Shown in pieces: positions 4,520 to 62,600 of a stretch of DNA of 64,000 nucleotides. The stretch's first letter is position 1; each line of letters opens with the position of its first letter. The notes below the pieces were generated by a model that saw only the letters and a program-made list of their open reading frames with translations, was not told where the DNA came from and searched no databases. The translations under genes were made by a program, and so were the position numbers. Source of the DNA: Polytrichum commune (lineage: Eukaryota > Streptophyta > Polytrichopsida > Polytrichales > Polytrichaceae); contig OX485807.1 of the NCBI GenBank assembly GCA_950295325.1, forward strand, positions 34,008,440 through 34,072,439, written 5' to 3'.

Positions 4520-7018
4520 TTTTGGAAGGAAACAAGATTGGTTTTCCTTGATGCAGGGATTTGTTTTTGTTTATAACAATGTTTAAAAAATAAGAAGAGT
4601 AATTTATGGAAGCGTGGAGGCATGTTTTTTAGAATTGAATTGGGTATTTTATCTGGGCCTGGGCTTTGTTATTACTTAGGTTTTTAAGACAAAAGTCGTA
4701 TATTTCTTGGTCAAAATACGTGTGTAGGGGGGTTTGGGGTTCTCCTTGTTTGTCAATGATGTATCCGTCTAAGTCATGCCATGGATATTGCCGGACTCCA
4801 CATGTGCAGTGTAGTGGGTGTGTATTTTGATATTGGCATGTGAGAACTGTAGGACGGTTACTGATGGATTGTTGCGTATATATTTCTGCTGCGATGTCTT
4901 ATGGGTTAGTTAATATATTGTTTTGTCTATCAGTGATGGAGTCCAGGGGTGAAGTTTCAGTGTTCTTGAAGACTTTTCGATTTATTTTTTTGGGGTTTTT
5001 TTCATACATTTGACGGTATTTTGATACGGACTTTAGAATGCAGTCTTTGGTGTATTTTGTGGTGATTTTCCTGGCTTCTTTATTTGTATTTTTTGCGATG
5101 GTTGCTATGGCATCAATCCATTCAGTAGGAGGTGCCGTTGTGACAGGTGGGTATGGGATGTTTGTGTGTTGGTGGTTTCGTATATCGGTTAGGATGGGGT
5201 GTGCTTGCCAGAGTGGATCGTGTTGTGCAATGTATATGGTTTTCCTGATGAGGTGATATGTGTTGGGGTGTCGTTTCCATTTTCTCGCAAGTTTGCGTGG
5301 CAAAACCCACCTTGTTGTGATGTTCTGTTCATAAGGTTGGGTAGTGGGTCTGCTTTACAGGTTTCTTCAATTGTTTCTGAAATTTTGTATACAATGTGGT
5401 CGAGTGTTGTACAGGCTTCCGCCCATTGATCCGGGCTTAAGTGTTGGTGGTTTTCGAGTAGGGTGGTAAGGGCTTTTATTTGTGCGGAGTTTTCTTCGAA
5501 GAATGTTATGTTGAATTTTTCGATGTTTTCTGGTGGTATTGGGTTTAGTATTCTAGTTGGTGACGTGTTTGTGGGGGGTGGGGATCTGGCTATAAGGGTG
5601 TTGTGGGGGATATGTAGTACAACTGGATAATGGTTTGAATTTAGATTCATGTTTGTGTTTGTGGTAGAAATGAATTTGCTGTTGTCTGGTGAGTGAATGT
5701 AGAATCCATCTATTAGACTTGTTGATGTGTAATTATAGCCTCCTTGCCTGGAGATGCTAGTGTTAGTTGGGATATATTCTAGGTTGAGTGATGCGGTGAA
5801 AAATTTCCATTGGTAATCTTCTTCTTGTGGAGGGGTGTTAATGTTGTTATTTTGTCTGCCTCTAAGTGCGATATCTCGGTTAAAGTCCCCATATAATGTA
5901 TACATGTGATTGGGGTGTATAGTGATTTCGTTAGTGATTTCGTTCTTAAGGTGTGGAATGAGGCATGTGTCTTCTAAGTGTGTAGGCATGTATATGTGTA
6001 TGATTAGCCAAGGTATTAGTCGATGGTTGTTTATTTTAATTATTTGTAGGTATGGGGATATATTTATTGGCGTGGGAATTTTGGTGATATTCCCAGGGAA
6101 TGCATATTTCTTGTGGATAAGTGTGAGTAAGCCTCCTCTTCCGGGGGTATAAGGCATTCTTTGTTGTATGCATCTTGTGAGTGCATGTGTGTTGTTGAAA
6201 ATGAGTTTAAATTCTGGAAATAGGTTTTGTATGTATTTTGTAGATTTATTTGCAGTTAGTTTGGTTTCTTGGATATGTATGATTGCTGTGTTGTTTAGCG
6301 AGTTGTTTATTAGGCTTTGTAGGTTTGGTAATGATGTGTTGAGTGATGACGCATTCCATGTTATTATGTTTGTTTCGTGCTCGGTGTCGGTGTTAATTCT
6401 TGGGGTTGGTGTGGGAGTAGCTGGGGGTGGGGGTGGATGTGAATATTCGTTGATGCTTTCTAGGCATCGGAGTGCTTCGGTGATCAATTGATTTGGGAGG
6501 AAGGGAAATTTATTTTGAAGGGTGATTGGTGTTGGTGTAGTATCTTGGTTGTGGATAAATTCATATATCTCTGTGTTTATTGAATTTTTTGGGTATATTA
6601 TATCTTGATTGTTTTCTACAAAAGTTGTGTAGGGGTGAGGTGTTGATATATGCCTTTCGGGGGGGTTGGTGAGGTTGGCCAATCTGATAATCAATGTGTT
6701 CGTCCATATGTTATTAAAGTGGTAATTTTGGGGTTGGACTAGTATGGTATTGCATGTGTCTATTGAGGGGTGGATGGTGATGATTAGAGCGTATAGCATA
6801 TGGGTTAGTGGTGATTGCTTTTGTGTTTGGATGTATTGATGTAAATGTGGGTAGGTGGTTATTGTTTGAGGGTGTAGTGGGTGTGTGTTTTTTAGTATGG
6901 GGGCAAATGTGTTTGCTATGTGTTGGTATTCAGGTTGTAGTTTTATAATGTTTGGAATGAAGTAGATGTTGGCTATTTTTTTGTGTGTAGCAGGGTGTGT
7001 ATGTAGGATGTTAGGCAT

Positions 7019-7063
7019 TGGTCCGGGGTTGGGTTCTATGTCCCCGCATTTTAGCAATTCTAG
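7019..7063 (-). other. 2A ribosome-skipping peptide motif (D-I-E-x-N-P-G-P)
   Basis: Codons on the minus strand read LELLKCGDIEPNPGP, ending with the proline codon at 7019-7021 and followed at once by ATG. The core D-(V/I)-E-x-N-P-G-P is the complete published 2A consensus. The ribosome releases the chain after glycine and resumes at the final proline. The upstream hydrophobic helix-like stretch (YYFINKLELLK) fits the need for a helix in the exit tunnel. Skipping would free a leader of 273 residues (from 7840), 242-31 residues from later starts, down to a 31-residue leader from the ATG at 7114. The endonuclease-RT polyprotein would then begin P-M-P-N. The motif is seen directly; activity is inferred. 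Confidence 0.9.
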
Positions 7064-7300
7064 TTTGTTAATAAAGTAGTATCCGTGGGAATGGAGTGTT
7101 TTTGGATTTGTCATATTTGTTTTTAGATATATTATGATTGTAAACTTGGTTGTAGTAAAGAGGTTAGGTATAGCGGGTATGATGTTTTCTATTTGTTTGG
7201 GTGAGAAGTGTGAGTTTGTATTTTTTATAGATTTTTGGCTTGTTATTGAGTTAGGTCTCCAGTTATTTATGAAGTGGTATGTGTTATTAATTGTGTGGCG

Positions 7301-7619
7301 AGGCCGGTAGGCCGAGGCCATTGTATCTTTTGGGTGAGGTTGGTATTTTGAATGAGGGTTTAATAGGTGTTTGAAATAGGGTTTGTGATGGTGTTTGATG
7401 TTGAGGTGAGGTTTATTTAAGGTGAGTAGTTTATATTTACTTTTTGTAAATAGATTAGGTAAGACAAATATTGTTTTTTGTGTAGTTTTTGGGAGGTAGT
7501 GTATAGGTTTAGTATTTTGGTGGGTAGACTTTGTGATTGTGTTAATGATGGGGTTAAGGGAGTGGTAGTGTATATATCTTGTTAGTTTTATTTTGTAGCA
7601 AGGCCGGTAGGCCGAGGCC
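7301..7619 (-). repeat. 300-bp duplicated module marked by a GC-rich 19-mer
   Basis: The 19-mer AGGCCGGTAGGCCGAGGCC occurs identically at 7301-7319 and 7601-7619, exactly 300 bp apart, inside very AT-rich sequence. Because 300 is a multiple of three, both copies read ASAYRP in the same frame. The downstream protein segments align weakly (for example LPNLFTKSKYKLL against IPNLFTTTKFTII), so this looks like an old tandem duplication in which only the GC core has stayed identical. It may be a 5'-leader monomer or promoter-like block rather than protein. The core contains nested GGCC and CCGG motifs. Confidence 0.7.
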
Positions 7620-7857
7620 GTATTGTGTACTTTGTTGTATTGGATAGTATATTGTTGTATTGTGAGTAAATAGATTTGTTTTTGTGAGGTGTTGGGGGGG
7701 TTTTCTTTGTGAATTTTTGATGTTATAGTATTCATGAATACTATAGGTAGGGTTTTATTTTTAGTATATATTAATAATTTAATTATGTTTTTGTTTTTAG
7801 TATATAAATATACTATAAGTACTTTATAATTGTACGCCACCGGGATGTTTGTCGAAA

Positions 7858-9477
7858 TTAGTTTGTCAAGTCCATATTGTTTTCAATTTCCGATATGTCC
7901 GGATGTGCCGCTTCGATAGCATCCAAAGTAATTTTCATTTGCCTTTGAAGGAGTTGTATTTGGAGTTTGGAATTCTTGTTTGACTCCGCTTGCACATGGT
8001 CGGCATAAACCTTTGCCTCTTGTACAATCTCATCTTTAAGGTTCACCATTTCCTTTCGTATTTCATCCGTCCCCTTTTTTACCGCTGCTTCTACCATCTT
8101 GTTGAGATCTTTGTTGGTGATATTTTGGTGCGGTCCATTCTCCAGAGCTTGGATGGTGTTTGCAAGTGCGGTGTTCACGTCTGAAAATCCAAGTCTAACT
8201 AGCTTTTCTTTACTAGATGCATTTATCCCGTCTAGACTTTTTGGATGGGGGTAAATTCAACATATTTACCAAATATTTTTTCATTTTTCTTAACAACTTT
8301 CTTGTAGACAAACGAGTTGAGGCATTTGACATTGCATGAGCCCGTATGCTTCCCGTTTTCAAGTCTAAAGTAAAAACCGAAAACATTTAGTTTTCCCATG
8401 CATTTTCGGATTCCTTCTTCGATTTGTATGGTTGTTTTTACCTTATTGAGGTTACGGGCAATTAGAATGAGTGCATTATTTCGGGCTTTATCATCTTCTG
8501 AGAGTTTTTAGTTACTTGCAAAGTTTACATCTACTATTTCATTGAAAAACGAAAGTTTGAGTGGTTTAATTCTTTTGGCTTCCTATGGAGAGGGTGCTTT
8601 AATCCAAGCAAACTCTGCATTCGCCGATTTTTGCACATTCGTTATTTCAAAGTCAAGGCCTCGTCGAAATCCATCCCCAACTATTTCTACAAACAAAGTA
8701 TACCATTCTTTACCCTTGATTGACGGGGTTGTGACTTTGACGGAGAGCATGGATGCAATTGCAATGGTATCAAAGGATTTACACACTTTGCCTATAGCAT
8801 GCGTAAATTGGCCAAGCTTGAGGATGAAAGGTCTCAATCCACAGAGAAGGCCATATCCATCCATTTTAGGGTTTTTAAGGTGGAGTTTAATAATTCCACT
8901 CCATCTTTTGGTCCCATGAAAACAAATGACAGCTATGGGCTCTCCTAGGACTTCCCTGACCTCTATCCTCATTGTTTTTAGTCTATCCTTTGTTAAGTTG
9001 AGTATCACATCTCTATCCAATTCTATTCTTTCAATTTCAAAATGGATAGATATGTGATAGTCCAAAGCAAATCCATGGTCACCCACTTCCACATCCGAAG
9101 GAATTTGGGTGAGATTGTAGTGCATTCCCTCCTTACCATCCGTTCGTATAGAAGGCCACTCTTCTTGGGCAACGAACGGAAAGGAGGGAGATGACTCCAC
9201 CATTTCATGTGCTTCAGACTCACACATACCTTTTTTGACTAACTCAGTGAAAGAAGGTGTTTGAATGAGAGGCATGTTGGCAAATTTTGCAATTGTGTTC
9301 ATAGTTTGAAAACCAAGCCAATAGGGGGGGGCGTGTTCTTTTAGTGGGTGCTATTCCTTTAACCTTCTTTTGACTTGACAATACCACAGCAAGCATTGGA
9401 CGTTTTCCACTTGTAGATTCTATATTTTCATTTTCAAACAATTTACGGGATGATGAGGTTGGGGTGATGGTTGCCAT
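7858..9477 (-). pseudogene. retroelement ORF1-like protein, decayed
   Basis: Pieces in different frames join into one protein-like reading. It begins at an ATG at 9475-9477 (MATITPTSSSRKLF), shifts frame in the C run at about 9326-9333, and runs from 9302 to a TAG at 8583-8585. It continues in frame past a TAA at 8508-8510, then shifts at the C5 run (8247-8251) to finish at 7858. The middle part has a compact domain with 'ICFHGTKRWSGIIKLHL', 'GYGLLCGLRPFILKL' and 'GLDFEITNVQK'. The next part has a second, possibly RRM-like block ('NNALILIARNLNK', 'KYVEF'). The end is a charged coiled-coil-like tail (roughly 8180-7860). I recognise the style of a plant LINE or retroelement ORF1 but cannot name the family. 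Base composition is balanced, unlike the G-poor ORF2 17 bp downstream, so the two may be one bicistronic element or two abutting elements. Confidence 0.55.
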
Positions 9478-10059
9478 TCTGATATAAGCAAAGCAAACAA
9501 ACATTTTGTACTTTAGTTTTGAATGAGGTATACTTCTTATTTTCTTTCCTCTAATTTCTTTCCACAAATTAAGTTGTGGGCCTTTTAGGAATTGAGAGTG
9601 AAAGAAGAAGTGATTTGCATGTTCTAACATCATATGAGTACTAGTATGAGTACTACTTGCATTCATCCTATGATAACACCTTTTTCTATTCATATGAATC
9701 TTCATATTAGTATTTATAAATTGGTTGTAAGTGCTCTTATGTAGATTATGATTTGTCACAACTCTAACATTCCATACATCTCCTAAGCATTTGAGCCAAG
9801 TATAACTGAAAGCACAAGCATCTACCGTTACTACCATGGATCCATTATTTCTAATGGGACATTCATTTATGGTATGAACATTAAGGTTGTTATACCATAC
9901 CTTTGGATTTATGACGTTCTTGTATGTGTTTTTAAAGCAAGAGTTTGTAAGGCATTTCCATGTGGTGTGAGAGTTGACACTATGAGAGTATATCCAGTAT
10001 GGTGTGGCTAGTACTAGCCACATAATGATAACAAGGTAGGTTGCATATGCAACCTTCAT
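9478..10059 (-). other. in-frame open extension upstream of the ORF1-like gene
   Basis: The ORF1-like frame remains open for 194 codons above the MATITPT start, beginning MKVAYATYLVIIMWLVLATPYW, a stretch that looks like a signal peptide or membrane helix. The rest is rich in His, Asn, Thr and Cys with no domain I know. It may be a leader region of the element that happens to be open, or a real N-terminal extension. I favour non-coding leader because the predicted composition is odd and a conventional start follows. Confidence 0.3.
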
Positions 10060-12095
10060 TTTGCTTACTATCCTAACAAACCTATCAATGCTATGGTGTG
10101 TCTAAGACTATGTGTGTGCCTATGTGCAAATAATGAGAAAACAAATTAACGTATAAACTTACCCAGCTGTTGGGCAGCAGGCAGCAGGCTCTGGAGCGGC
10201 AGCGTCAGCAAACCTGGTGTCAACGGTAGCGGCTCCTCGGTCGCAGGATTTCCTCTTGCAGCAGCGTCCTTCAGCTTCCTTGGGTAGATTTTTGTTGCAC
10301 ACTGGCCCTCCAGCGGCTGTAGTAAGTTTTTCCACACTCCGGCACAGCAACTCTAGCAGCTGCAGCCCGCTACTCCACACTACGGTAGTGTAAACAGCAC
10401 GCAACTTCAGTCGCTTACAACACTCTCCTTCAGCCACTCCCGACACGTAACAGCACCAGTCTTCTTAGTCTTCAACAACAACAGGTTAGTTTTTTACAGC
10501 GCGGCTGGATGTTGAGTCTTCTCCTTCCGGCAGCTGTGTCCCTTGCACTTCAGCAGCTTCAATGTCTCCTGACCCTTTCCAGTGGCTTCCGCACGTAGTG
10601 GTTTTCTGCCTGTGGTTGCAGGTGCAGGTACAGACTTCGAGTAGCCGGTACTCCTTTGTGTGTTGGTGTTGGCTTCATGTAACGACACGTTTCCTGGTCT
10701 GCAGTTTTGATTTGCCTCCTAGTTCCGGTTTTGTCGGCAGCAGCTGCAGCTCTGGTGTTTGGTTTTTGATGTGTGTAATCCCTGGTGCTCTATGCAGCGT
10801 TGGGAATGTAAGATCTGTTTCTACTAATAAAGAGCTGTTTTCTATCTTCTTGGTCAAATTATATCTCCTCCGATTTGTATCTGACTTTCAACCTACAAGC
10901 GGCCTAGTTCAAGAATCCTAGCAGCAATCTATCTTCTTGGTCAAATTATATCTCCTCCGATTTGCATCTGGCTTTCGACCTACAAGCGTCCCGGTTCAAG
11001 AGTCCTAGCAGTGCAGTTTCACTTCTATGGGTATTCTGTGGGTTTTAATCTTTCAGAACCTCACTCTGGGCTCTTGAGCTATGCAATCGCTCTACTTCTG
11101 GGAGTTTTTCTATCGTTGTGTTTCGCCGAACTCTGGGAAGCCTAATCAAATCAATGTAGTCTCTCTACTTCCAAAGATCTGACTGTCTGATCTTCTCTAT
11201 ATTCTCCGATCTGCGGGGGTTGAATTCAAAGAGATCAAAAACAATATTTCTATCTAATTGAGATCTCTCAATCCGTCATACTACGTCGGTAGATCTGATA
11301 CTCAGTGAGTCTCAGATTAGGGTGCGCCTTAGCCGGATGCGCGTTTGCGGTGCACGGTTGCTGCAGTTGTGTGTGATCCGGTACTCCAGTCATGCAGCTA
11401 CAGAACTCGGCAGTTGAATTCGGCAGGTTTCTTCGACAACAGGGTGAGGTCAGCTTTTTCTGGTGCACAGCGGTGGCAGTCTTCGTACTTCTTCAGCGTA
11501 TGTTGTCCTGGAGCTTCGGAGGGGAGAATGAGGATTTGGTGTTTTGACAGGGTCTTTTATGTTGGGGTGGAGTCGTTCGTTGAGGTGTCTGTAGATCGCT
11601 GTGCCCTTTCAAAATCCGAAGAGGTGGGTGGCTGGGGGGAGAGAGTTTCGAGGAGCAGCATATTTGCCGCTTCTACTCTTGCTCTTTCCCCCTTACCTCC
11701 AACGGCCTCCCAGATCTTGCAGGGCTTCGCCAATCTGCTACGTTTCTACAAGCTCCATCCTTCTTTTCCGGCCAGCCATACATTTTCCAATCACATGGAA
11801 AAAAAATGAACCCATGCATTAGGAAACAAGAATGGTCTGAACCAAGATATGAAGCTCAAAGAAAAGCTCATGTTTTGGAGAATTATTTTGGAATGTAGGG
11901 TCCAAGGCAGGGTCTGGCTGAAGGGTTGAATTCAATGAACGGGGACAACCAACTACTAGTTACATACGAACCGGTTGAAAAAGAGCCAATCGAAGTTCAA
12001 GACTTTAAAAAATTTGCTAATTACTTCAAAAAAATTTATAGAATATACCTCATATTAATAAGGAAAACTTTAAAATGTCAACATAACCGATTAGA
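10060..12095. other. gene-free CAG/CTG-rich region with an 87-bp tandem duplication
   Basis: No gene is recognised. 10150-10780 is rich in CAGC/GCTG words on both strands, which generates several overlapping small open frames. An 87-bp unit beginning 'ctatcttcttggtcaaatta' at 10842 is repeated directly at 10929 with a few differences. The region resembles an untranslated or leader region of a retroelement (perhaps the ORF1-like one), but no LTR ends, primer-binding site or poly-purine tract could be confirmed. Confidence 0.4.
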
Positions 12096-23981: not shown

Positions 23982-24571
23982 TTATCGCACGTGGTTTACA
24001 AAATGTAAGGGGGTGTGATGGCCCCGAGACTTGAACTCATCAAAACTTTTCAGCATGAATTTGCAAAGACATTACTTTGGAATTGTCCGGGGATTTACCA
24101 TGACATATTTCCGGGCCCCCCAAATCTCCCAATGAAGTTGAATAATGTTATGTGCCCCAACATAGTTGCCGTCACTAGTCTTAATGTACGAGTTGTTTAT
24201 GGCCATGCTAGAAATGGAAAAATATATCACCTTGGGGACCACATATGAGTAAATGTTCACATTTTTACCAATTATTACACACATTCAATGTTCCAATGTT
24301 TCGATGTTTTAGACTTGAGCAAAAATTCAAGGGACTTGATTGTTCTTAAAATTCAAGATGCTAAAAATAGATAATTGTGTGAAAAATGTATTTTAATATT
24401 ACAATAATGCAAGTGTTGGTGGTGGGATATGAACTTGTGTATTTTTCCTCCCGAAGTTTATTCCAATTATACTATCCACATATTTCTAAGGGAGATGATA
24501 GATATGGTAGTTCCTATGGTAGGGCACGGGGGGATCACACCCCCTTCCATTTCATAACCACGTGCGATAAA
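23982..24571. repeat. inverted repeat pair with CACGTG core
   Basis: The left arm (23982-24033: 'ttatcgcacgtggtt', then 'aagggggtgtgat') is matched by an inverted right arm (about 24521-24571: 'atcacacccccttccat', then 'aaccacgtgcgataa'). The arms are about 50 bp with mismatches and lie about 490 bp apart. A third, shorter copy of 'ttatcgcacgtggt' sits at 24888 in the left-arm orientation. The arrangement fits a fold-back or MITE-like element, but no target duplication was identified. The core includes the G-box hexamer CACGTG. Confidence 0.55.
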
Positions 24572-24887
24572 AGTTTGCTACCCTATATTACATGCCATAG
24601 ATAATTTTTAAAATTATGATATTTTTTCTACATACACATAACCATTGATAATATCTTTTGTATATTTTTTTGAAATTTTTAGTCATCTTCATTTTTTGTA
24701 GTAATTTGTTTAGTTCAATGTTGCGTCATTCTAGTTAGAAACGGTATGTTTTATAAAAAAAACAAATCATCAAATTTGGTTACCAATTTTTACTATGTAA
24801 TAGATACTATGTATATTTACTCATAAAAAAAAATCATAAACTTTTGAACCATTTTGGTGATCCTTTATGTAAAAAGTAGATTTTGTT

Positions 24888-25740
24888 TTATCGCACGTGG
24901 TGTTCAACTTGACAATGAAGTGCACCCCCTGTGTGGTAGGGTGGTGGTTGATGGGTTCTTTGGTAGTTATTTGTGTATGTAAGGGTTTTCTTGTTGTAGA
25001 ATCTATGGTAAGGGTTTGCTACGGAGGTATTCATATGGATGGTTTTGTAACCTTCAGAGTATAGTGAGGCTCCTAGCGTCCATTCTTGTGGCAAGTTAGT
25101 GGTTGCAAGCTTCCCTTGATCTATTATTTATATTAAAAAAACCTTCGTGGGCTTATGGATGTACTGAACATAAAAAGTTTGTAGTGTAGTCACGGGTGCA
25201 TAAGGAGGAGGGTGCTATGTCACAATAGGTGTCATAGTGGTGGTGTTATTGGTAGGTGGGAGAGTTGTTTTATGTGAGGTTCAAAATTTTCTGCTAGTTG
25301 AGTCGTTGGCAGTCTTCCTTTGGAAGACCTTGTAGGATATGTGTCATTGGTCTTGAGTTTGGATGGATGTCTCCACATTGTGGAAGGAGTGAGAGTGGAT
25401 TGGTGATGTAAGTGGTTAGCTTTATGTATTTGGGGGTTCTTTTTTCTCGATTTGGCTAGAGTGTGTTGGGTGATGGTTGTAAGCGATATGATGGTTTGCA
25501 CATGATTGTGTGCATGTGTAGGATGGAGGGTTAGCATTGTGTATGTGTGGTTTTGGTGTGGTGTGTGTGTTGGGACTTGTGGGAGTATGTGGATGGTGGG
25601 TGTATGTGGGTGATATGTTGTTTATGTGTTTTGAGTTGTATGTGAGGGAGTTGTATGTGTGTTTTGTATGAGGAAGGTGCTTTTGTGTTGTTTATGGAGA
25701 TGTTGATGGTAATGAGTAGGATTAGGATTATTTTTGAGAA
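24888..25740 (-). other. A/C-rich, G-poor tract resembling the 2A LINE in composition
   Basis: Read on the minus strand, this stretch is rich in A and C with very little G, producing His/Thr/Pro/Asn-rich open frames (25232-25537 and 24888-25094). The LINE at 4.5-7.85 kb has the same unusual composition. I see no endonuclease, RT or 2A motif here, so kinship with that LINE is only a compositional guess. It could be an eroded fragment or an unrelated low-complexity tract. Confidence 0.35.
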
Positions 25741-26418
25741 TGGGGGACATTAGATATGCATGACACAATCATAATTAGCTTGTGCTTTCAAGACTAGCGA
25801 CGAAAACTACGTAAGGGTGTTATGTGATGACATGCTTGGTGACCTAGGACATGCCTACTAACCGAGAAGATTAAAAGGAAGAAATGATAGCACCTTGACT
25901 CCACTTGACTCTAGGCTCTTTTGGTTTCAGATTTTTTTTGAACATTTTCAGCCATCAAAGTAACTTACGTATATATAAACAACACTTGTTTTCATTATCA
26001 TGTGGAACCGCACAAATTTCATTGAGTATTTATCATGATAATTGTAACTTGTGATGTCATCACACAAGTATTTGATCAACTCCACTTGGATGGTGGTGTT
26101 GGTGATTCCCAACCACAAGACATACCATAGTACCTTTACCACTTTGGCACTAATTAGACTGTTTTTACGAAAAACCAAAAAATTGGAGATTTTCTTCTAA
26201 AAATCTAAAAATTTAATATGGGAAAAATGATTTTCTTTAGAATCCGGGATTTCGAATCTAATAATAAAAATAATAATAAAACACATCCTATAAGCAACCA
26301 ATGTGATAAAGAGACTATGGTACTTTCAATTGCCGTGCATGTGACAAAGCTCATTTTTAAGGGAGTTCAAGTTCGTGTATGTAGAGAAACAAATAAGATT
26401 GCACTTATGCATTTGAAT
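25741..26418. other. gene-free intergenic DNA
   Basis: No gene or element ends recognised. The open frames at 25948 and 26218 are short and without domains. Confidence 0.35.
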
Positions 26419-36113: not shown

Positions 36114-36638
36114 AGGATGCTCTCCTTTTCTTTATTCCTCAACTCGTACTCAGTGCGAGACGACACTCTCTTCTACCTTCACCACTTATAAGTTATAGAT
36201 TCGAGCTAGCAAGGTGAAAGGTCTAGAATTCCGACTTCACACGCTTGAATACTACATAGAACGTAGCAGAAAGACGTCAACGAAGTTTTACGCAGTTGGA
36301 TTTTTGGGGGCGGTTCTTTCATAGCTTCCATCTGCCAGTGGAGTACCAGGAAAGTAATAAATTTGTTCTAAATCTGCATGCATTACGTCCACAGGAAGAT
36401 TTAGGTCAAGTGCAGGTGATTGAATGCATTTCAATTCATCGGTGACCCGTCGGTGATCTCCGGGTTGGTAGTGACTCCGAGAATATCTGCTGATTCTTCG
36501 AGTTACATTCACGTGGTTTCGAGTGGGTGAGTCTTCATCGTATTTGAGCACATTAAAGTTGAATCGATCGAGTTCAAGTCCGCTTCAGCCAATCAGTAAA
36601 TACCTAGTTGGTCAATCGACTAGCAAGAAGATACAGTT

Positions 36639-38861
36639 ATGGGTCTGACGACAGTCGCAAGCCCGGATGTGGCCAATATGAAGTACTGCATTAATCATGG
36701 TTCTGGCGAACTCACGAAGGCGGTATCGGCTGACCCGCTCAACTGGGCTCGAGCAGCCGCCGCGATGCGGGGGAGCCATTTGGAGGAGGTGAAGCAAATG
36801 GTGGCAACATACTACCAATCCAACGAGGTGGCGATTGAGGGAGTTAACCTCACGGTCGGCCAAGTCACGGCCGTGGCGCGCCGGCCGGAAGTGAAAGTGG
36901 TGCTCGATGCGGAGAACGCGAAGAGCCGCGTTGACGAGAGCTCCAATTGGGTGCTTAACAAAATCATGAATGGAGGTGACATTTACGGGGTGACGACGGG
37001 GTTCGGGGCGACATCCCACCGGCGCACCCAACAAGGGGTGGCACTTCAAAGGGAGCTCATCCGGTTCTTGAACGCCGGGGTTATAGGGACGAAGGGAAAT
37101 GCATTGCCAACAGCGACCACCCGGGCCGCGATGCTCGTGCGGACCAACACGTTGATGCAAGGGTACTCGGGCATTCGGTGGGAGATTCTGGAAGCCATGG
37201 AGAAGCTCCTCAATGCCCATGTCACCCCCAAGCTCCCGTTGCGAGGGACTGTGACGGCGTCCGGTGACCTCGTCCCCTTGTCGTACATTGCTGGGCTTTT
37301 GACCGCCCGGCCGAATTCGCGGGCCGTCACCGAAGACGGGCGCGAAGTCTCGGCCGAGGAGGCCCTAGCCATCGCTGGAGTCGCGAAGCCGTTCGAGCTC
37401 CAGCCGAAGGAGGGCTTGGCACTCGTGAATGGGACCGCGGTGGGTTCCGCATTGGCCTCCACTGTGTGCTTCGATGCCAACGTGTTGGTGTTGTTGGCGG
37501 AAGTTTTGTCGGCTTTGTTCTGCGAGGTCATGCAAGGGAAACCCGAATTCGCGGACCCGTTGACGCACAAGCTGAAGCACCACCCGGGGCAAATGGAGGC
37601 GGCCGCGATCATGGAGTGGGTGTTGGAAGGGAGCTCGTTCATGAAAGCTGCGGCGAAGTTGAACGAGACTGATCCGTTGAAGAAGCCGAAGCAGGACAGG
37701 TACGCATTGCGCACCTCACCCCAGTGGTTGGGACCCCAAGTGGAGGCCATCCGTAACGCGACTCACTCGATCGAGAGAGAGATCAACTCCGTGAACGACA
37801 ACCCCATCATCGACGCCGCGGGAGACAGAGCGCTCCACGGAGGCAACTTCCAGGGCACCCCAATCGGCGTGTCCATGGACAACTTGCGCTTGGCGGTCGC
37901 CGCGATCGGCAAGCTCATGTTTGCACAATTTTCCGAGCTCGTGAACGACTACTACAACAACGGGCTGCCTTCCAACTTGAGCGGGGGGCCTAACCCTAGC
38001 CTGGACTACGGGATGAAGGGCGCGGAGATCGCGATGGCCTCATACCTCTCCGAACTGAACTACCTGGCCAACCCGGTGACTACGCACGTCCAGAGCGCGG
38101 AGCAACACAACCAAGACGTAAACTCGTTAGGGCTGGTGTCCGCGCGAAAAACCGAGGAGGCCATCGAGATTCTTAAGCTCATGAGCTCCACCTTCCTGGT
38201 AGGGTTGTGCCAGGCCGTGGACCTCCGACACGTGGAGGAAACCATGCAAAGCCATGTGAAACTAGCGGTCTCTTTAGTGGCCAAGAAGACACTCTACGTC
38301 GACGAGGACAACAACCTCCTCCCGTCGCGGTTCTGCGAGAAGGACCTCTTATTGGTCGTGGAGCGCGAGCCCGTGTTCAGCTACATTGACGACGCGACCA
38401 GCGACACGTACCCGTTGATGCAGAAGCTTCGCGAAGTTTTGGTCCGTCACGCGCTCAAGACTGCCTCCTCGAAAGGTGAGAAGAATGTCACGGACGACGC
38501 AGCTACAATCTCATTGAGCAGTAGTAATGCGAGCGTGTTGAAGAGAATCTCTTTGTTCGAATCCGAGTTGAAGGAGAAGTTGCAAACTGTGGTGCCCGCG
38601 GTTCGCAAATCTTACGACGACGAGGGATTGTCATCGGTGGCCAACAGAATCCATGATTGCCGGTCATACCCTCTCTACAAGTTTGTCCGGTCGGAGCTCA
38701 AGACGCAACTGCTCTCGGGTTTACGAACAATCTCGCCCGGCCAAGAGATCGAGAAGGTGTTCGATGCTATTTCGGAAGGCAAATTGGTGGCCCCTCTCCT
38801 TCAATGTGTGCAGGGATGGACTGGAGCACCTGGGCCGTTCCCGGCTCAAGCTACATGTTAG
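36639..38861 (+). CDS. PAL: Phenylalanine ammonia-lyase
   Basis: A single uninterrupted 740-codon frame with a clean ATG and TAG stop. PAL removes ammonia from L-phenylalanine to give trans-cinnamate, the entry to phenylpropanoids. Ala207-Ser208-Gly209 in '[17 protein letters not shown]' form the MIO electrophile. The catalytic tyrosine loop is [18 protein letters not shown] (Tyr116). The selectivity pair is Phe143-Leu144 ('ELIRFLNAG'), with Phe rather than His, so phenylalanine rather than tyrosine is the expected substrate. 'NDNPIID', '[16 protein letters not shown]' and '[13 protein letters not shown]' are also intact. The length matches plant PALs (700-740). It has high third-position GC against AT-rich flanks and no intron, whereas most angiosperm PAL genes have one. 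It should be cytosolic and tetrameric. Several long antisense frames inside it are composition artefacts. Confidence 0.98.
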
Positions 38862-56636: not shown

Positions 56637-59600
56637 TCAGTATGTCATACTGTAAAGCTTAAAACTGGGGTTTTTGGGACCTTCCAGAATGACAGCATCA
56701 TCCTCCCTATGTACATACACAGAGTTCTCCCTGGCCATCCTCTGGATTTCGATAGGAAGTTCCGGTTTAAGCCCTGTGCAGCCCACAAGGTTGAAGACTT
56801 GCAAAGCAGGCAGATTACCAATCTCAGGGGGCAAACGGACAAGCCGAGTACAGCAATTGAGTGACAGCCGCTGCAGACACCTCAAGTTGCCAATCTCTGC
56901 CGGCAAATGTGCCAACAACTTCATGTAGTCGAGTTCCAAAGACTGGAGGTTCACCAGGTTGAACAACTCATCCGGAAGTCGAGGTAAAGATGTACATGAA
57001 TTCAACACAAGCTTCTGCAGAGCAAGCAGCTGACCGATTTCGGCCGGCAGCTCCTTGATACCTGTACATGACCCCAAATTCAATCTATGAAGGTTGGTAA
57101 GTTGGCCAATTTCCCGGGGCAGTCTCTCCAACCGAACACATCCGGAGAGAGAAAGCTCCTCCAGAGAGCGGAGTCTGCCTATTTCAGCTGGCAGCACACT
57201 TATCCCTGTCTGCCCCAAGTAGAGCTGTGTCAAGTTCTTAAGGTTTCCGATTTCGGTCGGCAGTCGGACGAGGCACTTGCAGAGCGTTAAGTTGAGCCTG
57301 AGAAGAGTATGTAAGTTTCCAATCTCCGAAGGCAATGCTGTGATGTTGCTGCACCCTGAGAGGTCCATCTCCCGGAGGCTTGCGAGCTGGCCTATAGACC
57401 TATGTAGTTGTCGGATTGCCAAACAATTCTCCAGCCGGAGCCGTTGTAACATCTTCAGATTCCCCAGTTCGGCAGTCAGGTCGTGTAGTTTGTTGCATTT
57501 GTTGAGGTGAAGCTCCAGGAGCCCCGACAGCTGCACTATACACTCGTGCAGGACCTCCATATTGTTGCTCCCGATGAGCGTAAGATCTTTCAGTTGTGGT
57601 GGGAACTGGAAAAATAATAAAAATAAATAAAAGAGACATTGACCATGAGAACATGTTGACATCTACAAACTGATCCAGTTTGCAAAGTGAAACTTATAGA
57701 AGATTATGCTGATCTCCACTGGACTAATCACACAGCTTACGCCAAGAAAATGTCTTTCAAAGATGATTTCAGAGCTCCTACCCTGAAATTACCACTTGGC
57801 GAAATCCTAGAAAACTCAGCAATATGAAAATTAAAAACTAACCTTAATACTGAGGTCAATCTCAGCTGCTTGGAGTATGCACATCTCCAGCCTCTTTAGT
57901 CTCTCCATCTGGAAGGGAATTCGCACATCCGGAGCGACTTTGCTACGACCCCAATAAAAGAATTGTAACTGACTTAGGGGTTTGGTGCAGTGACCTTTCA
58001 CACCCGTGTCATGGAGAATGAGAATTTTGGCCTTCTGCATCTTCTCCAGCATGGTTCCTTGTAGTGGCTCCTTACAATTGATCAATGACAGCCCATGTAA
58101 GTTGCTCAATTCCTGTAACAAACAATTAAACATCAATTAGCCCAAGCAATGTACGAAATGACGCTGTCTGTTGGCTCACATCGTTCAGATATGATAGACA
58201 GTAGTCCGAGTAAGGACACTACAATGCCCTGAGCGATAAATCTTGTATTCAAGGACACTCAGACAACCACAGGATAACTTTGGCTGCCTGTCGTTGATAT
58301 TGTATGCAAAACAACCAATGCAAAATCATACGGGACCAACTCCCGACGAAAAGTCCCCTCGAGTTAAAGGATGACTTTTATAATGATAAGAAAGGACTAC
58401 CGGTGATCCTCAAACAGCGAAGGTTACTTGGGTGAATAATAAATACGTGTTTTCTCGATAACAAACATCACAAAGAGAGAATCAAATGAGAACACTACCA
58501 TGCCCGGGCCATCCATTTTGAGTCGTTCCGGCAAATGGGTCTGATCCTCAGAGTGCACCCGATTGCCAGCCGCACGCCTGCACGCAATAGCATACAGCAA
58601 TTCATGCATCACCACCATTTCGGACTTCCACGGTCGCTCGGAGTAGCGAGTATAAGCGGCGATGCCAGAGGTGCCCTCTGCATCCTTGAGCTTGGCGCTC
58701 ACCATGGCTTGGTCCACTAAAGTGTCCAGCTGGGGTTTCCCCACAACTCGCTCCACCACCCTCCAATCCCAGCCCCGGAGGAATGCCGCAATGTCCAAGA
58801 AGGCCTCCTTCTGCGCTGGCCCCAGCTTCTCGTAAATGACCTGCAAAAAAAGAAACAGAAATTTTAAAACACGAAGTCCCTTCAAGGTTTTGGCAACAGT
58901 TCAAGATACGGCAAAAACGACTCAAAATGGATGGCCCAAGCAAATATCCATACTTCTCAACATCCATAGCTGCTTTGGCAACAATTTCACTACCTAACAA
59001 ATCTTCAAAAGCTCTAGGAACACTTCAAGATTCTCCAAGCGTTGGCAAGGATTTAATTCCCCGAAAACTCTGTAAGGTTTTCGCAGCACTTCAAAGGTTC
59101 TGCAAGAGTGAGAGAAGTGGGATGATAGCTGCGATGGCAAAAATTTCACTACCTAAAAACTGTTCAAGGTTTTAGCAACACTTGAAGATTCTGCAAGAGT
59201 GCAAGCAGTTGGATAATAGCGGCGTTGGCAACAACACTATTTTGATTTCACCCTGGCACAAGAGGGCCAAAAACTTAACCCAAAAACTCCCCAAGATCTT
59301 TAGCAAAACTTCAAAAGCCTCCAAGGATGCAAGACAAATGCACATAATTCACATACCAGCAGCTTGGCAAACATCTGGTCTTCTGAAGTATCCATCTCCT
59401 CGGCCACTTGCTTCATCCGCTTCCCAATCGCCATCCAATTCTCCTCGCTCCGATTAGCAGCATTTGAGAAGTACGACCCCACGACCTTTAATGCCATAGG
59501 AAGACCCTCACACAGGGGCAAGAAATGGTTAGCCAAGTCACCGTATTTCGAGAAGATGCCGTTGATGGAGTACAGAGTGTTCACAGGCTCCGAGGCAGCA

Positions 59601-62600
59601 TGCGAGATGAAGAGCGCTTTAGCTTGTTGTGGAGCCAAGGATGGCAGCTTGTAAGGCAGGTAGTGGTAGTTAGGCAAGGCAGGTCGACATAGCTGGTCCA
59701 ATCTGCTCAAAATTGCAACCGAAGGGCACGTGATGATCACACAGCTGTTGGCAGGGAGGACTTTACCCAAGCTGTGTGGGAAAAACTCTCCAACAAGCCT
59801 GACATCATAGAGATTGTCAATGGCAATCCTCGCCACCTTGTTAACTTCTTTGAGCTTTCGGAGCTGGTAAAGCAGGGCACTCCTGCCTTGGGCAACGCTG
59901 GTGAACTCCTTCTTTCCACCTCCAAGTTGCTCCAAAAGGGAGCTTTGCAATTTCTTGAGATCTTCACTCACTTCGATGTATGCAAATAAACGTTTCTCAG
60001 CTTTCTCAATCTTGGCAACAACTTCGTTGAGAAGAGTGGTTTTTCCCAGACCAGCCTGTCCGTGGATACCTACGAGGCAAACACCCTTATTGTTTACGAA
60101 CTCGGATATGGTGTTCACATGTTGCTCCAGGCCCACACTTGCTGTCCATTGCTCAGGTCCTGTCCGCTTGGTGCTGGATCCCAGAGGGTTTGTTGGTTGT
60201 GAAACTCGGTTGCCTACTGCGGCTAAGGTTGCGAACGTGAGACTGTCTTGCAATGTCTTGAGCTCCGCTATGGAGTTTTCAATTTGTGCTTTCACTGGGG
60301 AAACTGTCGATCGTGGCCCGAAACACAAACATCTGAAACCAACCATACACAAAATGATACATAGGGTCAGCATTGATTACTGCGACAAACCGTAAAACTC
60401 AACCCAGGGCTTTCAGTAAGTGCATCAGATGTCCATTCTTTTCATCATGCTAAAAAGGGCACTCCCTCGATGGAAACACAGGACGACATTTAACCTGACT
60501 TCCGCAAAAGCTTGATGGGATCCGAACCCAGATGAAAAAGAAATGAGAAAACAATCGAGACGGTTTTCGACAAACCCCAAAACTCAACCGAGGGTTTCGG
60601 TAAGTCCATCGAGGTCTTGCTAAAAAAAGGGCACTTCCCTCGATGGAAACACAGATAGATATATACCACGACATTCATCATATCCTTCGGGGATTCAAAC
60701 CCCAAATGCACATCCTCCTTCCGCAGCAACCAGCAATTACCCCTCAGCATTCATCAAATTGTTCACTAGTGATTGAAGTGGAAGAAACAAGTAATTAGGG
60801 GGCTATATTTCGAAGCAAGGAAACATACCCGCGTTTCTTCTCCTTCATGTGTCGAATGGCTGCGCAGCAGTAAAGAAGAGTCCCCGCCGCAAGCTTGTAA
60901 ATGTCATTGTCCACTTCAAGGCACAGCTTCAGCTCATCAAGCTGGTCGATGATGTGGTCGCTTTGCGTCATCAGACTTGACCATTTCTTGCCGCCCGTCG
61001 AAGTCTTCGCCTCCGCCGCGCAGTATGCACTCACATAACCGGCCAACGTGAAAGCTAATCCAAACCAGCTCATGTACCCAGTCTCCTTCAGAATGTCCCA
61101 ATGGAGATTCTCAAACACTGCGCCGTGGTCTTTGAACGCTGACTCTGACACCTGCATTGATCAGAGGAATTTGAACACCATCCCAATAAGCACTCTTTTG
61201 ATTACCTAACCCTGTGATGGTCGACAGCAACTCTTCCATATTGCACATGTTCTCTATCACTGACTCCGCCATTTCAACCTCCGCGTGAGGAACCATGATT
61301 TGGACTAAATTTATGTGTACCCAATTTGATATCCCCAGCAAGAAATCTTCACATTCAACCGCACTCGGAATCTCAAACAAAAACTTCGCTTAACCCATAA
61401 CTCAGGAAGAAGACGCCACAAAGAGTATGGAGCAAGACACGGCGTCAGTTCCAGCCATGCCTGTCATACACGATGCATAGCATGTGACAACAGTGAAGGG
61501 AACTCTACCCCACCAGCAGAAGCCTCAAGTCTTTCTTGGGCTTCATAAAAGAAACTCCCAAAAAATCAATCTGGCATCCACGTGATGATTGACGTAATCT
61601 CCTTTCTTGCACGTGAAAGAGCGGAACAGGAGCTTCTTACGTAGGACCCCCGAGTCCTTCTGTTTCTGTATCCTAAGTTACTTTCATGCACTTCTTCAAC
61701 CTTTCGATTGCTTCTTTCTCTACCTTTGCCAATCTTTCTCTACCTTTGCCAACACCTACCAACATTGCACACAACCGGTCTACATGTACAAAACCGCCAA
61801 GTCTTGCAGGAACACAAGAAACCTGTAAATGAGTGAGGCGCCAAAAGGGTGTCTAATTAGAGATTCCTCTTAAATCGCCCCCATGCGAGGTTGGTGGCAC
61901 ATTTCGTGAGCATCTCGTCTCATCTAGTCTCATGCAAGAAGAAAATAAATGCATGCGCTCGTTCACATAAGTCTTTGTTTTCCGTATCCTATCTACAATC
62001 TTTTGGTTGGCTCTCTTCCAACATCTACTACCAACATTGCACGCAGATTGACCGTCTGTACAGACTCCGAAGTCCACAGCAGACACGAACTTGGAGTCTG
62101 TACGGGAATAGGTGGAAGAAAGAAAACCCAAATCCTCTTGTAGGTACAGGAAAGCATTCAGATCCTCTTCAATCGCTCGCTCGCATGCAAGGAAGGTTGC
62201 TTGCCGGCTTCGAGTTCATTTCGTCTCGTCTCATCTCATCGCATGCAGAGAGTTTATCTGCTTAAGAATCTTAAACCAAGAACCCAAAAACAATGCGCAG
62301 GAGACACGAACTTGGGAGTCTTGCGGGAATAGGTAGAAGGAAGAAAACCCAAGTCCTCAAGTAGGCACAAGAATGGCTTCAGATCCTCTTCAATCGCTCG
62401 CTCGCATGCAAGGAGGGTTGCTTGACGGTTTCGTGCTCATATCATCTCATCACATGTGAAGAGTCATGTGCCGAAGAATCTTCAACCAAGAACCACCCAA
62501 GAACAATGCACTCCACTCCCGGCAAGGATTGTATAAATGAATGGAATGAAATGAATGTACCACCTTCTTGTAAAGGTCCTGTGAGGCTTACAAGAAGGCT

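Follow-up and report, generated by a model that had tools for sequence, protein, structure and literature searches.

Conserved 2A (StopGo) sites, sometimes in tandem, in ORF2 of a dual-endonuclease LINE from a land-plant genome and the probable release of small leaders

A canonical 2A (StopGo) core was identified in ORF2 of a LINE that has two kinds of endonuclease. Its occurrence in hundreds of copies, sometimes as two to four cores in tandem, suggests that plants have a natural form of StopGo. Judged from the sequences, skipping at this site is likely to separate an enzyme of 2341 residues from one or more leaders. LINEs with a 2A are in themselves already known; what is new here is that the host is a plant, that the LINE has two endonucleases and that cores occur in in-frame arrays. 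No precedent for a 2A in a plant LINE was found in the open-access literature, mostly consisting of titles and abstracts, which does not establish its absence from print, nor was one found in the available portions of PMC12846837, PMC4981915, PMC11512398, PMC5972666, PMC5009743, PMC8226300, PMC4640811 and PMC3636483.

The window, by which the whole analysed stretch of 64,000 nucleotides is meant, reads MTNPKTLHSHGYYFINKLELLKCGDIEPNPGP on the minus strand of 7019-7114, directly followed by a Met codon at 7016-7018. The encoded peptide reads ...LELLKCGDIEPNPGP and then Met, with a leucine-rich stretch before the StopGo core, and this translation confirms the canonical core and subsequent Met that a preliminary description had placed in a minus-strand frame. 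The predicted skip point lies between Gly 7022-7024 and Pro 7019-7021. The window copy itself is broken and truncated. The ORF2 frame around the core is open from 7882 to 5192, and tblastn and blastn comparisons with full copies place a frameshift near 5303 and the end of similarity at 4535, before the reverse transcriptase (RT). Because similarity ends there, the RT and all downstream parts are missing from this copy. When searched on their own, the pieces in the window returned nothing of use from Pfam or from PDB sequences, only one weak, chance-like match to Rad4, and the two window pieces of ORF1 that were tested had no Pfam match above the cut-off. An Rfam scan of the whole window returned nothing reaching the gathering score. 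The features of the window copy are listed in Table 1, in which the coordinates of the helical domain were derived from residues 285-469 of the full ORF2 protein P0003 via its collinear tblastn match.

Table 1. Positions of the LINE features in the window
Feature	Position	Strand	Basis or remark
Whole stretch matching full copies, 96.8% over 5.6 kb	4535..10167	-	
ORF1, split into frames 9244-10101, 8583-9350 and 7858-8256	7858..10101	-	747-codon single frame in full copies
ORF2 open frame, 897 codons	5192..7882	-	In full copies, this frame continues to 2625 codons
Candidate leader, 100 codons, from ATG 7319-7321 (context ACAATGGCC) to Gly of NPG	7022..7321	-	Putative start codon
Leucine-containing lead INKLELLKC, abutting the core	7046..7072	-	pN/pS 0.26 in 66 copies
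2A/StopGo core GDIEPNPGP	7019..7045	-	Translation; genome-wide related sites; retention in 66 homology-selected copies
Mostly helical domain directly after the 2A	6467..7021	-	Alignment A2 and its model
APE-type endonuclease domain	5609..6373	-	Weak Pfam Exo_endo_phos match on the full frame; structure model
Post-frameshift rest of ORF2, to the end of similarity	4535..5306	-	tblastn, blastn

The anatomy of the element was taken from full copies. A genome search with a 641-residue stretch gave 69 scored matches among 1724 first-look candidates, many of them more than 90% identical, and the 2625-codon open frame is present in three. The full element spans about 11.9 kb, common to two copies at 99.6% identity, and consists of an ORF1 of 747 codons, an ORF2 of 2625 codons whose beginning overlaps with ORF1, and a 3' region. 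No canonical -1 slippery heptamer was seen at this overlap on inspection by eye. The order within ORF2 is leader, 2A, helical domain, APE, RT, PCIF1-like domain, RNase H, CCHC and restriction-like endonuclease, with the 2A core at residues 277-285 of P0003. The preliminary description had located an endonuclease downstream of the motif, which agrees with a Pfam Exo_endo_phos match (E 9e-4, below the Pfam cut-off) that starts at residue 504, 219 residues after Pro 285. The post-2A part was modelled on alignment A2 (without the incomplete L040, L029 and L025 and the longer duplicate range of L036). The model, with a mean pLDDT of 68, supports the APE fold: behind a helical domain lies a fold whose structural matches are AP endonucleases, ExoIII and the L1 endonuclease, with a best E-value of 6.7e-11. 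The other Pfam matches of P0003 are RVT_1 (2e-29), PCIF1_WW (5e-8) and RNase_H (5e-13).

For the C-terminus, alignment A1 combined seven of eleven fetched C-termini with that of L013, after the removal of L042, L044 and L045 (broken frames) and of L050 (partial). The CCHC knuckle, (R/K)PD, a Glu and KxxKY are invariant in all eight aligned sequences. The resulting model has a mean pLDDT of only 58, with a better core, and its best six Foldseek matches are all R2 retrotransposon proteins. A comparison with VIA placed seven R2 rows at Z 10.5-11.7, followed by viral cap-snatching endonucleases at 8.3. In a PDB sequence search, the RT was also closest to R2 proteins among solved structures; the eight matches at E <=1 include no L1 ORF2p, an absence that proves nothing.

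By its architecture, the element is a Dualen/RandI-like LINE, since an APE and a restriction-like endonuclease share one protein, the combination by which Dualen/RandI is defined in the available text of PMC4640811 and PMC3636483. Non-LTR retrotransposons of this kind are known from green algae (PMC8226300, in part). The APE-type endonuclease, the C-terminal restriction-like endonuclease and the RNase H are all shared with this group. The 2A, its arrays and the PCIF1-like domain are seen here and may set the element apart from the algal ones. An ordinary plant L1 and an animal-type APE-only LINE with a 2A were both rejected as assignments, as the restriction-like endonuclease is also present and the APE is thus not the sole endonuclease. 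Heras in 2006 and Odon in 2013 reportedly described 2A in trypanosome L1Tc and in APE-type LINEs of multicellular organisms. Those elements likewise have the 2A near the N-terminus of an endonuclease-RT protein, whereas the element described here has a land-plant host, a restriction-like endonuclease, a PCIF1-like domain, RNase H and, in some families, two to four cores per frame.

The PCIF1-like domain lies between RT and RNase H, at residues 1871-1964 of P0003 in locus L013, and exceeds the Pfam cut-off at 150 places of the genome. PCIF1 is a family of adenine methyltransferases. Among the PCIF1-like matches listed, 46 lie on contig C1, and 32 of these have a same-strand 2A 3.5-8 kb upstream, compared to 0.09 expected on average under random placement. 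Judged by titles and abstracts, a search for PCIF1 and retrotransposons yielded no publication that describes a LINE with this domain. At the 3' end of L013-L015, the shared part closes with short CTAT repeats, which differ in length between copies and after which the flanks are unrelated. These repeats could be a microsatellite tail, or else the element could prefer target sites of the GATA type.

The conservation of the 2A was assessed across the 408-Mb genome. D(I/V/M)ExNPGP occurs at 273 sites and GDIxxNPGP at 423, compared to none for the reversed-pattern controls in both cases. All 25 sampled sites lead into the LINE protein, with 33-88% identity; these were fetched from 28 that had been picked for variety of DNA spelling among the matches listed, which cover all of C1 and part of C2. 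Because these sites had been chosen by motif, 66 copies selected by homology only were also taken (12 + 54 of the 69 genome-search rows). Three rows were left out, namely C36:4637, which presumably duplicates a C6 copy because its scores are identical, and the matches starting at query residues 65 and 66. NPGP is present in 63 of the 66 copies, D(I/V/M)xxNPGP in 61 and D(I/V/M)ExNPGP in 54. The core is kept across families down to about 45% protein identity. In many families, the lead before it is leucine-rich and ends in SG or CG (LLLLSG, LLLLCG); by eye, the window-type lead ELLKCG is a weaker fit to this class. Upstream sequences of the LLLLSG-like class correspond to motifs 2 and 6 with ends (A/S/C)G, of which motif 6 was active in reticulocyte lysate, and in nearly every case a tested motif lost most of its activity when residues typical of it were altered, as far as the available text of PMC12846837 reports.

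Selection on the protein was estimated from the same 66 copies. The codons for identical core residues differ between copies, and the core has a pN/pS of 0.15. Downstream of it, pN/pS is 0.16-0.23, and two stretches between Met 7112-7114 and the core have values of 0.32 and 0.26. Among 150 windows of nine codons, the core ranks 25th lowest in pN/pS and 17th lowest in pN; therefore, its constraint is about equal to that of the downstream protein and not higher. A smaller set of 11 out of the 15 loci L001-L015 was also used, without L004, L006 and L010, which are identical with L013-L015, and without L002, which has no strict core. The core value of 0.07 from that analysis is biased because its divergent set was chosen by motif, and the values from the 66 copies were relied on. 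Upstream of Met 7112-7114, pN/pS is 0.80 across codons 21-50 and 0.41 in the nearest 20. The preliminary description had treated 7019-7114 as the 2A region; this stretch does contain the core but covers only the end of the leader, given that the roughly 20 codons before the Met are also constrained.

In L013, the 277 codons 5' of the core contain no stop in the core frame, compared to 21 and 20 in the other two frames, and the chance of such a stop-free stretch is about 1e-7 from base composition. Clear constraint begins about 44 codons before the core. All 14 window-type loci compared, which represent 11 distinct copies, have an ATG at the position of 7319-7321. The ATG of L011 is not in the frame of the core, and in some families this Met is missing. 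Met 7319-7321 is a candidate start of ORF2 and would yield a leader of 100 residues. Met 7112-7114, from which the preliminary description had counted, is less likely as the start because constraint extends to the codons in front of it and because it is absent from several families. For the window leader, the suggestion of a signal-like role found little support. In a crude Kyte-Doolittle hydropathy check, which is not a signal-peptide predictor, the most hydrophobic 15 residues of the window leader have a mean of 1.16, although the corresponding value of another family reaches 2.11. Sea-urchin NLR proteins also carry an N-terminal 2A outside viruses, but they are cellular immune genes in which the 2A doubles as a signal sequence (PMC4981915, in part), of which the window leader gives little sign.

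The leader region also contains a GC-rich palindromic element, CTCGGCCTACCGGCCTCG, at 7287-7319 on the minus strand, with a second copy at 7587-7619. It has 292 exact matches in the genome, compared to none for controls, and of the 76 on C1, 64 have a same-strand 2A no more than 2.5 kb downstream. Since its reading frame differs between families, the palindrome seems to be conserved as DNA or RNA in the 5' part of the LINE and not as coding sequence.

Under the favoured mechanism, a ribosome translating ORF2 would reach Asn-Pro-Gly, and the 2A peptide in its exit tunnel would prevent the bond to Pro. The leader would be released at Gly, with a length of about 100 residues if Met 7319-7321 is used, and the same ribosome would resume at Pro and make the rest, a protein of 2341 residues that comprises the helical domain, the APE, the RT, the PCIF1-like domain, the RNase H and the restriction-like endonuclease. 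In this way, a single start codon would give rise to separate leaders and to an unburdened enzyme, all without a protease. That a 2A, in this case from sea-urchin NLR proteins, is functional in plant cells is stated in the available part of PMC4981915.

Several families have more than one core in frame: four in L029, three in L110 and two each in L106-L109, L111 and L036, and in L034 a second core reads NPGA. On C1, 13 of 14 spacings between neighbouring cores are divisible by three (P = 6e-6 against one third, with related copies being non-independent). The array cores include GDIQxNPGP, GDIHxNPGP, GDIYTNPGP and GDIRPNPGP, so that position 14 (p14) is often Q, H, Y or R. According to the available text of PMC12846837, His at this position is more than 95% active and Gln 56% or 26%. 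Several 2As per frame are known from picornaviruses, and picornaviruses with several 2A(NPGP) share multiple in-frame cores, short intervening tracts and a location before the enzymes with the arrays described here (PMC11512398, in part). In contrast to these viruses, the host sequence here is a chromosomal plant retrotransposon in which no capsid part was seen. Where a frame has two to four cores, translation would first give off a series of small leader proteins and then the enzyme.

The arrays also bear on the possibility that the 2A is mainly an attenuator, at which the leader is released and few ribosomes continue, resulting in an excess of leader and scarce enzyme, with arrays reducing the output further. 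The enzyme of a LINE is usually required in small amounts, and up to four in-frame cores would fit a stepwise reduction. Some viral 2As seem to terminate translation without continuing (PMC11512398, in part). However, a plain stop codon would do this job equally well, and the leucine-rich class skipped actively where it was tested, as reported in the accessible text of PMC12846837. Attenuation as the main role is considered unlikely.

Not all copies retain a canonical core. The preliminary description had named related full-length copies without the motif as grounds for rejecting it, and a minority of copies are of this kind: 54 of the 66 homology-selected copies keep the full core, but 12 do not match D(V/I)ExNPGP. 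GDIKPNPGP stands in seven of these, p12 is G or N in two, and three are without NPGP. G or N at p12 is allowed by the accepted core (D/G/C/N)(V/I)ExNPGP, and p14 of viral StopGo sequences is almost exclusively Glu, as given in the available sections of PMC12846837. The GDIKPNPGP subfamily comprises L057-L061, L063 and L067, among them copies whose open frames are as long as 2924, 2663 and 2107 codons. Among the 37 frames of at least 1000 codons, six have GDIK and one has NLGP; among the seven of at least 2000 codons, three are canonical, three have GDIK and one has NLGP. Either Lys at p14 may work in this element, or some copies may dispense with efficient skipping.

These very long open frames in the GDIK subfamily and in one NLGP copy could also indicate that the conserved peptide has another role, such as forming the beginning of the next domain, and that no skipping occurs, and the equal constraint on the residues after the core would be consistent with this. 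Set against this reading are the retention of the StopGo core and the leucine-rich lead across families while the preceding leader diverges, as well as the in-frame tandem repetition, which resembles multi-2A polyproteins (PMC11512398, in part). It is regarded as improbable, even more so than attenuation.

The element is nuclear, and its host is a land plant or a close relative. The window lies within a contig of 52.9 Mb and holds genes with Pfam matches to PAL, NB-ARC, LRR and eS10, and matches to the element occur on all seven large contigs, which make up 406.1 of 407.8 Mb. LFY is a streptophyte marker. LFY C-terminal domains were found at three genome places with six matches, and none was found in 14 control genomes; they sit on C1 and C7, contigs that also bear copies of the element. 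The placement of a 2A in a nuclear LINE of a land plant, as initially proposed, is thus upheld by the genome-wide conservation and by the plant genes in the window and the genome. Although the 2A LINEs described elsewhere come from trypanosomes and other species including animals (PMC4981915, in part), a chance motif or a contig from an animal or protist contaminant is hardly conceivable given the hundreds of matches against none for the reversed patterns, the plant genes on this contig and the LFY domains on contigs with element copies, and this reading was rejected unless the whole assembly is chimaeric.

Other features of the window were recorded alongside these. The aromatic amino acid lyase (PAL type) is encoded by an uninterrupted frame of 745 codons at 36627-38861 on the plus strand, and the NB-ARC and LRR frames lie at 56640-57662 and 59303-60376 on the minus strand. 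A second strand-biased stretch, at 24001-26000, has a GC skew of 0.29 and contains a C- and A-rich ORF at 25232-25621 on the minus strand, for which neither a Pfam match nor a tblastn match to the LINE frame was found. Relatives of the element were also searched for in viral_contigs, where 14 (A1) and 66 (A2) peptide-pattern matches were obtained, none of which was confirmed.

On balance, the sequences favour, with some reserve, a native land-plant StopGo: a group of dual-endonuclease LINEs in which one to four working 2A sites in ORF2 would yield small leaders and a 2341-residue enzyme with a PCIF1-like domain of the adenine methyltransferase type, possibly acting on the element's own RNA. 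If this is true, the variation of the 2A, with E, K, H, Q, Y or R at p14 and one to four sites, would tune the ratio of leader to enzyme naturally. The arrays let serial skipping be studied in an element without sign of a viral protease. The finding would also extend 2A to a LINE group that has both kinds of endonuclease and would offer many divergent, plant-evolved 2A variants that are ready to test. A conserved and abundant chromosomal case in a land plant would mean that plant ribosomes encounter natural 2A sites.
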